From Flavobacterium salmonis (GTDB lineage Bacteria > Bacteroidota > Bacteroidia > Flavobacteriales > Flavobacteriaceae), in assembly GCF_903819435.1 (NCBI RefSeq), contig NZ_CAIJDP010000053.1, positions 1-64,000 of the forward strand: DNA of 64,000 nucleotides, read 5' to 3'. Shown here in pieces: positions 1 to 47,232 of the stretch. The notes beneath the pieces are model-generated. The model was not told the origin of the DNA, did no database searches, and saw nothing but the letters and a program-made list of their open reading frames with translations. The translations under genes were made by a program, and so were the position numbers. Positions within the stretch are counted from its first letter, which is position 1, and each line of letters begins with the position of its first letter.

Positions 1-3
1 AAA

Positions 4-47
4 CGCTTATAGCGGATTTTTTAAAGTCCTGTTATAAGCGGTTTTTT
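4..47 (+). terminator. Rho-independent terminator of an upstream gene
   Basis: An 8-bp inverted repeat (CGCTTATA at 4-11, TATAAGCG at 33-40) is followed directly by a T run at 41-46. It would end a plus-strand transcript that enters from outside the window. A near copy of the right arm plus T run occurs again at about 106-121. Confidence 0.55.
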
Positions 48-84
48 ATTGTCCAAAAAATAAACCTGATCAAAATAAGGGATG

Positions 85-98
85 TTTTTCAGTGCCCT
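85..98 (+). repeat. Relic of a MITE/IS terminal repeat
   Basis: The 14 bases TTTTTCAGTGCCCT match the terminal inverted repeat of the element at 45210-45389. No second end is visible here, so this looks like a decayed or partial copy, or a chance match. Confidence 0.35.
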
Positions 99-152
99 TA
101 ATTTTTATGAGCGGTTTTTTTGTGCATAAACTTATTTGAATGGTATCAAGTG

Positions 153-44360: not shown

Positions 44361-44744
44361 ATGGAAACTACAAAGCCAGAAGAATGGAATAATTCAAATC
44401 CTGAAATACCGGTATTTAAGGTTGACCCAATTATGGTATTAGTCTTTGGATTTTTAACTTGCGGATTATATTTGATTTACTGGAATATTAAAGTTGCAGA
44501 AGTTTTTAATGCAGTGGCTAAAAGAGAAGTTATTTCTCAGCCAATTGCAATTTTTGCCGGATGTTGTATGCCTATAAATATTTACTTCTATTATTTAGCA
44601 GGTAAAGAGGCTTTGCCAAAAGTATACGAACAAACAGGTGAACTTCAAAAAGATCAATCAACTTTATTAATCCTTTTAGGTTTCTTTTTTCCTATAGCCG
44701 CAGCAATGATCGTACAAGGTGACATCAACAGATTGTATAAATAA
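44361..44744 (+). CDS. DUF4234-like membrane protein
   Basis: 127 residues from the ATG at 44361; an earlier in-frame TTG adds three. Two to three membrane segments, VFGFLTCGLYLIYWNIKVAE, then IFAGCCMPINIYFYYLAGKE and ILLGFFFPIAAAMIVQGDIN. The T-C-G-L-Y-x-I-Y-W pattern is that of DUF4234. Function unknown. Starts 17 bases after DUF805. Confidence 0.75.
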   Translation: METTKPEEWNNSNPEIPVFKVDPIMVLVFGFLTCGLYLIYWNIKVAEVFNAVAKREVISQPIAIFAGCCMPINIYFYYLAGKEALPKVYEQTGELQKDQSTLLILLGFFFPIAAAMIVQGDINRLYK

Positions 44745-45183
44745 TAATAGAATAAAACGTAAAATTTACGGAATTATCGGTGCATTAATAACACTGATAG
44801 TTCCGTTTTTTTTAATGTTGCAAAATCATAATAATCATTTAGAATCAGATCAGTCTTTATGTCCTTTTAAAATGCTTACCGGATTTCCTTGTCCGGGTTG
44901 CGGTATAACTAAATCGTTGGTATACTTTTATCAGGGAGATATTTATAAAAGTATTAGCTATCATATTTTAGGCCCGTTTGTAATTCTTTTTTGCTGTCTG
45001 ACAATTATTGTGTTAACAGTAGAGATAATTAATAAAAAAGAATATTTTACCACTCTTTTATACAATAAAAAATTAGCTTATAATCTGGCTTATTTTCTGG
45101 CTATTTATCACTTTGTAAGATTGATAGTTTTTATTGCAAACCATTCTTTTGATGCTATTTTGCATCAGTCTGTCTGGTTTTAA
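44719..45183 (+). CDS. DUF2752 family membrane protein
   Basis: 154 residues if a GTG at 44719 is used, which overlaps the DUF4234 gene by 26 bases. The motif CPFKMLTGFPCPGCGITKS and YHILGPFVILF define DUF2752, a small membrane family with a conserved P-C-P-G-C-G. The first membrane segment (KIYGIIGALITLIVPFFLML) lies between the GTG and the first in-frame ATG, so the ATG would cut it off, which favours the GTG or an unrecognised start. The start is therefore uncertain. Confidence 0.78.
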   Translation: MTSTDCINNNRIKRKIYGIIGALITLIVPFFLMLQNHNNHLESDQSLCPFKMLTGFPCPGCGITKSLVYFYQGDIYKSISYHILGPFVILFCCLTIIVLTVEIINKKEYFTTLLYNKKLAYNLAYFLAIYHFVRLIVFIANHSFDAILHQSVWF

Positions 45184-45186
45184 AAT

Positions 45187-45410
45187 AAAAAAAAATCCCA
45201 ACCACAAGGGAGGGCACTGAAAAAGTGGCTATTTATCAAAAGAGGTTGTTTTCAAATATGAAAACAACCTCTTTTTCTTTAATGTATTCGGATAGGTGAT
45301 TGAGAACATTTCGTACAGACGATTCTCAGAGCCTCCATTTTACTTGTAAAATTACCTTTTTAATTTTAAAGGACTTTTTCAGTGCCCTCCCACAAGGTTA
45401 GGATTTTTTT
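45187..45410. terminator. Bidirectional terminator split by a MITE
   Basis: The outer parts, A-run plus ATCCCAACC (45196-45203) and GGTTAGGAT plus T-run (45396-45410), would make a terminator with loop ACAA for both convergent genes if the 180-bp element and one target copy were removed. The insertion lies in the loop. Confidence 0.75.
45210..45389. mobile_element. MITE with 17-bp terminal inverted repeats
   Basis: 180 bases, ends GAGGGCACTGAAAAAGT (45210-45226) and its perfect complement (45373-45389), flanked by direct repeats CCACAAGG (45202-45209 and 45390-45397). Because the flank and ends run together as G/C, the duplication could be read as 4, 6 or 8 bases. Inside is a 17-bp perfect stem with an AATA loop (45238-45254 / 45259-45275) and no transposase. 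The parent IS family is not identified; a 14-base partial match to the end lies at 85-98. Confidence 0.85.
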
Positions 45411-45423
45411 TTATTTTTCTTTA

Positions 45424-47232
45424 TTAATTAATGTCCTCTTTCTCAGCTAATTTACGCTCCAGTTCAATCTGAAACTCTTCTATTACAGGTTTCATCGTAC
45501 TTTCAGGAATATCTGCAATCCTGATGTACATTAAACCATCGACTGCATTGTTAAACAACGGATCAACATTAAAAGCTACTACTCGCGCATTTTGTTTGAT
45601 ATATTTTTTGATTAATACCGGCAAACGCAAGTTCCCTGGTTCCAGTTCATCAATAATTTTATCAAATTTGTTAAGGTCTGATTCTGCTTCGTCAAAAATA
45701 AAATCTTTGTCAGCGTCTTTCAGTTTTACCTTATAAGCCTTTTTCGGATGAATATACTGAGCGATATAAGGATCATAATAGTTTGACTTCATAAATTCAA
45801 TCATCAGCGATTTTGAGAAGTCAGAGAACTGGTTACTGATGCTTACGCCACCCAATAAATATTTATGTTCCGGATAACGCAAAGTCGTATGAATAATTCC
45901 TTTCCATAGTAAGAACAATGGCATAGGTTTTTGCTGGTATTCTTTGACGATAAACGCACGACCCATTTCTATTGATTTATGCATCATATCATGCAACTCC
46001 GGTTCAAATCTAAAAAGATCGTTCAGGTAGAAGCCTTCAATGCCGTATTTTGGGTAAATTTCAGAGCCTAATCCCATACGGTAAGCACCGGCAATTTTTT
46101 TAGTATCCTCATCCCACAAAAACATATGATGGTAATACTGGTCAAACTGGTCTAAATCTATTGATTCATTGGTTCCTTCACCTACTTCACGAAAAGTAAT
46201 TTCGCGTAAACGGCCAATTTCATGCAAAATATTCGGTATCGATTTTGCTCTTGCAAAAAAGACTTCATAATTTTTACTTTGCAATAAACGACAGTCACTG
46301 TTTCGTAAAGCATCTACTTCAGCAATCATTTTTGCTTCATTTGCAGGAGTAGCAATTTTTTTAGGTGCTTTCGTAATTTTTAAATTAGCCGTATCCAGTA
46401 ACTTATGATCTTTTTCAAAAGGATTGGCCAGCATATAGGTTTTCTTTCTTAAAAACTCAGAGTATTCTTCAAACGATTCAATTTCGTTTTGTTCGTTTAC
46501 CGAAATTGGTTTGCCGATACGAACCTTAATAACACGGTCTTTTTGAGTAAGCAATTCCGATGGTAATTTTGCAGTACGCAAAGTATCATCAATTTTAGAA
46601 AGCCAATAGAACAATCTGCTGTTTTTGGCATGAAAATAAATCGGGACAACCGGAACTTTAGCTTTTCTAATTAGTTTTAAAGCTCCTTCTTCCCAAGGTT
46701 TGTCAACTACCAGTTTTCCATCTCTGTAAGTCGACACTTCCCCGGCAGGGAAAATACCCAAAGGTTTTCCATCACTTAAATGACGTAAGGTTTCCTTAAT
46801 TCCAACCACGCTGGATTTAGCATCCCTATGATTTTCAAAAGGATTAACCGGCATGATATATTTTTTAAGCGGAACAATTCGGTGTAATAAAAAGTTGGCA
46901 ATAATCTTGAAATTAGGTTCTCTTTCAAGCATTAATTTCAATAATAAAATACCATCAATTCCTCCAAGCGGATGATTTGAAATAGTGATATAAGCACCAT
47001 CTTTAGGCAAACGTTTTAAGTCTTCTTCCGGAATTTCAAACTTAATTTGTAATTCATCCAATACTCCGTTCAAAAAAGGAACGTCTTCTAAATGTTTATT
47101 ATGATCGTATATTTTATTAAGGGTTGATATCTTAAGAACCTTCATAAGAATCCAGCCTGAAAAAGTACCGAAAACCCCGTACTTCTCAACATTTATCGCC
47201 TTTGCAACTTCTTTCGCGGTAACTAAACCCAT
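45424..47232 (-). CDS. olsF: Bifunctional acyltransferase, OlsF type (ornithine lipid synthesis)
   Basis: 602 residues in two parts. The N-terminal half (about 60-290) is a PlsC-like acyltransferase with ISNHPLGGIDGILLLKL (H-x4-D) and FPAGEVSTYRDGK. The C-terminal half (about 310-560) is an OlsB/hemolysin-like GNAT acyltransferase (LREITFREVGEGTNES, MGRAFIVKEYQQKPM). Family knowledge: OlsF, reported in Serratia and Flavobacterium johnsoniae, makes ornithine lipids by adding both acyl chains. Assignment by architecture only. It is convergent to the DUF2752 gene, across the MITE. Confidence 0.78.
   Translation of the reverse strand: MGLVTAKEVAKAINVEKYGVFGTFSGWILMKVLKISTLNKIYDHNKHLEDVPFLNGVLDELQIKFEIPEEDLKRLPKDGAYITISNHPLGGIDGILLLKLMLEREPNFKIIANFLLHRIVPLKKYIMPVNPFENHRDAKSSVVGIKETLRHLSDGKPLGIFPAGEVSTYRDGKLVVDKPWEEGALKLIRKAKVPVVPIYFHAKNSRLFYWLSKIDDTLRTAKLPSELLTQKDRVIKVRIGKPISVNEQNEIESFEEYSEFLRKKTYMLANPFEKDHKLLDTANLKITKAPKKIATPANEAKMIAEVDALRNSDCRLLQSKNYEVFFARAKSIPNILHEIGRLREITFREVGEGTNESIDLDQFDQYYHHMFLWDEDTKKIAGAYRMGLGSEIYPKYGIEGFYLNDLFRFEPELHDMMHKSIEMGRAFIVKEYQQKPMPLFLLWKGIIHTTLRYPEHKYLLGGVSISNQFSDFSKSLMIEFMKSNYYDPYIAQYIHPKKAYKVKLKDADKDFIFDEAESDLNKFDKIIDELEPGNLRLPVLIKKYIKQNARVVAFNVDPLFNNAVDGLMYIRIADIPESTMKPVIEEFQIELERKLAEKEDIN

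Follow-up and report, generated by a model that had tools for sequence, protein, structure and literature searches.

Two convergent genes, one encoding a DUF2752 protein and the other an acyltransferase, meet at a hairpin that is split by a short mobile element. The locus lies in the window, i.e., the whole stretch of 64,000 nucleotides that was analysed, which belongs to contig C53 in a Flavobacterium salmonis genome (5.86 Mb, 138 contigs). The element is a 180-bp MITE with perfect 17-bp ends, and it is flanked by an 8-bp direct repeat. Outside this repeat, the left arm of the hairpin reads aaaataaaaaaaaATCCCAA, and the right arm consists of TTAGGAT followed by a T-run. An ORF scan found no frame of at least 60 aa within the element (45210-45389), and an Rfam search of positions 44900-45700 returned zero families. 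The features on which the argument draws are the following:

1-99, minus strand: terminus of an autonomous IS that is truncated by the contig boundary, with an end hairpin; partner end at C45:99 (L039)
44719-45183, plus strand: DUF2752 protein gene (PF10825, 4e-17), upstream partner of the putative split terminator, ending 18 bp before the duplication
45182-45201, no strand: left half of the putative split bidirectional terminator (A-run and ATCCCAA), overlapping the last bases of the DUF2752 gene
45202-45209, no strand: left copy of the target site duplication CCACAAGG, 8 bp
45210-45389, no strand: MITE family A, a non-autonomous IS1182-type element of 180 bp with five copies in the genome
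45210-45226, plus strand: left terminal inverted repeat GAGGGCACTGAAAAAGT, the same as the ends of the IS copies
45238-45275, no strand: internal 17-bp perfect hairpin, terminator-like, with a T-run that passes the scan on the plus strand only
45373-45389, minus strand: right terminal inverted repeat, pairing with the left end
45390-45397, no strand: right copy of the target site duplication CCACAAGG, 8 bp
45398-45417, no strand: right half of the putative split terminator (TTAGGAT and T-run), from sequence and fold
45424-47232, minus strand: acyltransferase/GNAT gene, the convergent neighbour (PF19576, 6e-30; PF13444, 2e-25)

Rejoined as an empty site, the flanks fold as AAATAAAAAAAAATCC[C]AACC(ACAA)GGTT[A]GGATTTTTTTTTATTT, with 20 pairs, one C/A mismatch, an ACAA loop, a folding energy of -18.9 kcal/mol and a dyad score of 42. 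The target duplication comprises the ACAA loop together with two stem bases on each side. As the genes on both sides converge on the rejoined hairpin, the flanks without the MITE read as a bidirectional terminator common to the two genes. A first-pass annotation made from the letters of the window had described a MITE with perfect 17-bp inverted ends, flanking repeats and no transposase, placed between flanks that would form one terminator with loop ACAA in its absence; both parts of this description were confirmed, and the length of the duplication is now defined as 8 bp.

The hairpin is also found where the element is absent. The 3' part of the acyltransferase gene was found in 193 of 198 genus genomes, the window's own counted, and the 29 best-matching loci besides the window's own (83-87% identical) were compared. 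Using a simpler arm search with no chance control, an uninterrupted hairpin of at least 12 pairs was found behind the gene in all 29 relatives, and a T-run in 28 of them; a stricter scan found the hairpin at the orthologous site in 23 of the 29. None of the 29 carries an element end at this site. In L263, L268, L271 and L275 the end of the upstream gene, by eye, matches that of the window too, and these four look like true unoccupied alleles, while the upstream gene differs at several other orthologous loci. According to the first-pass annotation, an unoccupied allele lacking the reconstructed hairpin would speak against a split terminator; the uninterrupted hairpins of the relatives point the other way. 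They also reject the candidate explanation that the hairpin arises by chance from the element's own ends.

The window element has several relatives in the same genome. Five copies of the MITE (MITE-A) were found, in the window and on C45, C54, C73 and C74, together with one copy of a second MITE (MITE-B) on C49, which has a different interior and like ends, and four ISs bearing the MITE's ends. This family of copies runs against the other finding that the annotation had named as fatal, i.e., an element without further copies. Two near-matches in this genome (G000) were left out, at C60:16246 and at C60:43822, the latter lying in L048 and looking like a chance match. The MITE copy on C74 (L046:1018-1734) holds an insert of ~530-540 bp with a 148-aa ORF that resembles an IS200-type transposase. 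One IS is whole (L047, on C89), and three are cut by contig ends and were paired by their duplications (C57/C56, C45/C53 and C58/C44). The C45/C53 pair includes the start of the window: the IS end at position 99 is followed by the duplication AATTTTTA at 100-107 and then by half a terminator, the other half lying where contig C45 begins (L039).

The whole IS measures 1,755 bp, has the ends GAGGGCACTGAAAAA and the target duplication GCTATCAC, and encodes a transposase of 482 aa. This protein matches the NCBIfam IS1182 model NF033551 with 366 bits (cut-off 270, 2.9e-109) and PF13751, PF05598 and PF01609 above cut-off, while a PDB sequence search gave zero matches. Its residues D145, D307 and E439 are invariant in nine aligned IS1182 transposases (the others 26-79% identical to the first) and are probably the catalytic DDE residues. 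Cys 356, 388, 391 and 397 are likewise invariant across distant IS1182 transposases; perhaps they form a zinc-binding insert, which could take part in target reading. The window element is classed as a MITE for its 180 bp, the lack of a transposase gene, its several copies with duplications and the ends that it has in common with an autonomous IS, and its partner as a member of IS1182 for the family model, the predicted DDE residues, the terminal inverted repeats and the target duplication. The IS1182-family transposase, of which L047 holds the full copy, would move the window MITE in trans.

The site of insertion can be scored in every element whose two ends are paired. The score is that of the best inverted repeat centred at most 3 bp from the centre of the duplication in the rebuilt empty site. 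Nine of the ten pairable elements of the genome lie in sites scoring at least 20, and the tenth (L040) scores 19.0, or 25, with a stem of 11 pairs, once loops of 16 nt are admitted. Across the genus, the 17-bp end is present in 15 of 199 genomes, the window's own counted. The search gave 142 ends, of which one duplicate was dropped, 106 were paired and 35 stayed unpaired, among them L204 and L259, which look like chance matches, six ends of L163, L164 and L183 with inverted loops, and two of L182 with a mutated duplication. The ambiguous pairing L226/L232 was dropped, and the pairing retained, L210/L226, is itself doubtful. An exact direct repeat thus pairs 53 insertions in the 15 genomes, 47 of them with 8 bp and six with 9 bp. 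Of these 53 rebuilt sites, 44 score at least 20, 40 at least 24 and 33 at least 28; among the 44 hairpin sites, the dyad lies exactly on the centre of the duplication (offset 0) in 30, and the loop measures 4-8 nt in 37. Duplication parity and loop parity are weakly associated (P 0.07). The sites below the threshold are mixed: L040, L155/L158 and L181 miss it narrowly, by eye, the hairpin looks imperfect in L218/L227 and off-centre in L233/L236, those of L156/L159 and L186/L203 are weak, L210/L226 has the doubtful pairing, and the rebuilt site of L192/L196 shows no hairpin.

Two groups of copies depart from the usual arrangement. In L163:264-473 and L164:275-484 (both G175) and L183:268-436 (G056), the loop is present in both flanks in inverted and not in direct orientation, such that the right flank is the reverse complement of the left arm plus loop; for L183 this was seen by eye, with one base missing. 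Perhaps such inverted loops arise when repair of the long flank-end-flank inverted repeat converts one loop. In G139, L161:2313 and L162:719 lie ~784 kb apart on one contig, with same-strand ends and one common duplication, and their flanks together rebuild a near-perfect terminator. The shared duplication and the rebuilt terminator point to a large inversion between these two element copies.

Could the sites merely be those where an insertion does no harm? Convergent gene ends are safe places, and elements that inserted at random might be spared by selection only between convergent genes or behind genes. This explanation is very improbable, however, as the controls reject it: a score of at least 20 is reached at 0.65% of 21,178 random window positions and at just 2.3% of 7,876 intergenic window positions (0.8% reach 28), and by 0 of 318 centres shifted by 10-18 bp. 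Both the shifted centres and the intergenic positions indicate that the duplication sits on the dyad and not merely near gene ends, a centring that selection would not produce. In addition, a Metabacillus copy (L290) interrupts an HD-domain gene, the reading frame of which runs on without a stop once the site is rejoined, and its target hairpin is poor, with an A-run and a T-run enclosing arms that are short.

The same choice of target extends beyond the genus. Related transposases occur at 68 named loci, of which 46 were analysed and the remaining 22 are partial matches. Among the 46, seven are without ends, 11 without a duplication of at least 7 bp (several of these having the right ends and no intact repeat), one is a duplicate of L237, and 27 were scored; L305-L307 were likewise left unscored. 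The threshold is reached at 24 of the 27 sites, and the sources of this wider set, from the Bacteroidota and the Bacillota, include Flavobacterium, Chryseobacterium, Sphingobacterium, Bacteroides fragilis, a Lachnospiraceae MAG and Lysinibacillus. A hairpin is absent from the site of L115 (Lysinibacillus) and weak at those of L102 and L104. On plasmids of Metabacillus, Peptoclostridium, Priestia and Enterococcus raffinosus, four copies show duplications of 8-9 bp at sites that by eye are terminator-like. Taking genus and wider sites together, 80 rebuilt sites of 52 nt have a median RNA folding energy of -17.1 kcal/mol, versus -5.3 among 500 stretches taken at random. Within 24 nt, 47 of the 53 genus sites and 21 of the 27 wider ones have four A to the left and four T to the right, versus 15% of intergenic positions, and pairing is kept while the stem sequences vary from site to site. 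With 44 of 53 genus sites and 24 of 27 wider sites, the earlier suggestion that terminator loops are a preferred target is strongly supported.

As most sites are terminator-like and have T-runs, it could be speculated that a paused transcription complex or the nascent RNA hairpin is captured, and not an inverted repeat in the DNA. L118, from an Oscillospiraceae MAG, has a target hairpin without a T-run, and L290 lies within a gene; these are two cases only, yet they speak against such a target, which we regard as improbable.

A proteobacterial subgroup of IS1182 differs in how much of the site is duplicated. Its members, from Rhizobium, Aminobacter, Sphingobium, Salinivibrio and Providencia, have the ends CAGACTGCTGAC and transposases with 24-26% identity to that of the window. 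All 12 fetched copies (L296, L297, L300-L303 and L308-L313) have on either side an exact direct repeat of 18-25 bp that takes in the G+C-rich stem-loop of a terminator-like site from end to end, and the repeat length in this subgroup therefore follows the hairpin. The window clade, by contrast, has a repeat of constant length, 8-9 bp, on the loop. More distant plasmid copies are less uniform: L294 and L295 have 5-bp repeats in small palindromes, and L298 (9-bp repeat), L299 and L304 (no repeat) show no clear target hairpin.

These duplications bear on the form in which the target is read. A transposase dimer could read two-fold symmetry in duplex DNA, or the flanking A- and T-tracts, with no hairpin being formed; the fixed duplication of 8-9 bp whatever the stem length, as in an ordinary transpososome, and the presence at 47 of 53 sites of an A-run and a T-run, each on the side expected, would fit such a dimer. 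Mispaired flanks from the same genome keep the tracts, however, and only 12.3% of 350 score at least 20, while the target hairpin of L118 has no T-run at all. Furthermore, the proteobacterial repeats of 18-25 bp (12 of 12) track the hairpin, a relation not expected of a duplex footprint of constant size. By inspection, no shared base pattern was noticed beyond the tracts. Recognition of the duplex alone is accordingly considered rather unlikely, and a cruciform, or a hairpin formed upon strand separation, would best fit both the fixed loop duplications and the variable stem-loop duplications.

The elements also bring hairpins of their own. In the window MITE, 45238-45254 pairs with 45259-45275 at 17 of 17 positions, five of them G-C, around a 4-nt loop, and folds at -22 kcal/mol on the plus strand and -23.4 on the minus strand (z -9.4 and -8.3). 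Its dyad score is 39, and at least 34 is reached in only four of 351 window tiles of 180 bp. The first-pass annotation had this hairpin ending transcripts in both directions; in a simple terminator scan, the plus strand passed and the minus strand failed the T-run rule, so that the sequence supports the claim in part, for the plus strand. One such hairpin is present in each of the 12 MITE copies scanned, a set to which the G139 element L162 does not belong. Among the 19 complete ISs, 17 have a hairpin at the end upstream of the transposase gene, starting within ~50 bp of the end, and 15 have one at the downstream end, starting within ~60 bp; L109/L110 and L118 show no downstream-end hairpin, and that of L047 scores only 16.5 without bulges. 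Between genera, the place of the IS-end hairpins is constant and their sequences are different.

Conservation suggests that it is the pairing that matters. In MITE-B and a relative from another species, five of the 17 pairs of a 17-bp stem are changed on both sides and none is broken, in three rows of which two are near-identical, leaving two lineages. The seven rows of MITE-A and its G056 relative have GATTCTCAGAGC in common, and the stems are quite different. In the 18 alignable IS-end hairpins, 94% of cells pair, and covariation exceeds that of shuffles and slid controls; hairpins that could not be aligned were left out, e.g., those of G131, G058, L083, L087, L097 and L104 and of the Bacillota copies. 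Given the compensatory changes and the covariation, the element-borne hairpin seems to be maintained as a structure. That the MITE hairpin replaces the terminator split by the insertion is plausible.

Many ISs have insulation against read-through into the transposase gene. The hairpins may be for the element alone, in such insulation or in transposition, with host termination as a by-product; we hold this to be possible, at somewhat below even odds. The upstream-side hairpin precedes the transposase start, and the T-tracts at the IS ends are longer for transcripts entering the element (medians of 8 vs 6 and 8 vs 7 T in ten; paired P 0.0015 and 0.025, with a smaller effective n because several of the 19 ISs are near-identical). 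Yet all 12 MITE copies analysed retain the hairpin without a transposase gene, and one MITE family shows the compensatory changes described above. Insulation of the transposase gene is thus not the whole reason for keeping it, while a role in transposition would still be compatible with the MITEs.

Taken together, we favour, with a probability of about 0.8, a transposase that picks hairpin-forming inverted repeats, mostly terminators, and duplicates their loop, the window MITE being moved by such an IS1182-family transposase. The reading draws on the family, ends and duplications, the dyad-centred targets, the intact hairpins of the relatives and the compensated hairpins of the elements. The transposase would bind the element ends and capture a hairpin-forming inverted repeat, mostly an intrinsic terminator, recognising probably the inverted-repeat structure, perhaps as an extruded cruciform, rather than its bases. 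Judging from the duplication, both element ends would then be joined to opposite strands ~4 bp either side of the dyad, and repair would duplicate the loop region of 8, sometimes 9 bp, with both stem arms retained. The insertion would split the host terminator; the element hairpin sits ~30-60 bp in from one end, where it would halt host-side transcripts, and may terminate those that escape the split terminator, making the insertion harmless and shielding the transposase gene from read-through.

A broader proposal, on which we are evenly divided, is that IS1182 is a family of structure-guided transposases whose subfamilies cut different landmarks of the hairpin, and whose elements co-evolved replacement terminators. 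The landmarks would be the loop in the window clade (8-9 bp), the foot of the stem in the proteobacterial subgroup (18-25 bp) and, for IS1272, deletion of the stem-loop. Because terminators are what they usually hit, the elements would have co-evolved their own at both ends and inside the MITEs. The family is reportedly listed in the ISfinder/TnPedia table with a very wide range of duplication lengths. If correct, the proposal offers a testable rule, namely that the length of the duplication reveals at which position in the hairpin the cuts were made. A transposase that recognises DNA shape, locates terminators in the Bacteroidota, the Bacillota and the Proteobacteria and comes with a replacement terminator would account for a low-cost spread of such elements, and might serve as a tool to mark genomic terminators or hairpins.

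Other mobile elements offer partial parallels. Group IIC introns have no transposase and make no loop duplication. They resemble the elements described here in reading a terminator stem-loop at the target, but are retroelements that insert downstream of the stem-loop of intrinsic terminators (PMC7161350, citing Robart et al. 2007). The pneumococcal BOX and RUP repeats are likewise short, non-autonomous and interspersed (PMC3049150); the comparison is weak, as the listings and the opening of that abstract mention no targeting of terminator loops by BOX, RUP or other bacterial MITEs.

The closest known system is IS1272/TnSha1 of staphylococci, whose transposase is of the IS1182 family too. As given in passages of PMC4923244 and PMC5678879, it targets inverted repeats with no primary sequence preference, and RNA-seq confirmed that, of seven TnSha1 sites, hairpins A to E are terminators; some IS1182 members are also said there to target palindromes (Siguier et al. 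2015, as cited in both). A published survey reports that, of ten families, IS1182 has an excess of insertions between convergent genes (PMC9208149). Targeting of hairpins and terminators by an IS1182-family element is thus already published, and the window clade, with 44 of 53 and 24 of 27 sites, has the same kind of target. The outcome differs, however: IS1272 replaces the stem-loop by a blunt cut, with deletion and no duplication (passages of PMC4923244 and PMC5678879), whereas the window clade retains both arms and makes an exact duplication of 8-9 bp. In addition, the IS1272 passages are silent on element-carried terminators, which the window-clade elements have as predicted hairpins. No loop duplication at natural sites and no element-borne terminators were found for IS1182 in the open literature searched. 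Relative to the literature found, the following are new: a clade that duplicates the loop, duplications that span a whole stem-loop, conserved hairpins borne by the elements, and MITEs that have these in common with the ISs. Wan et al. 2017 drew duplication of the loop as a possible pathway c and duplication of the whole stem-loop as pathway b (passages of PMC5678879). The natural sites look like both, and would provide natural examples for a reaction scheme that had been drawn only as a possibility.
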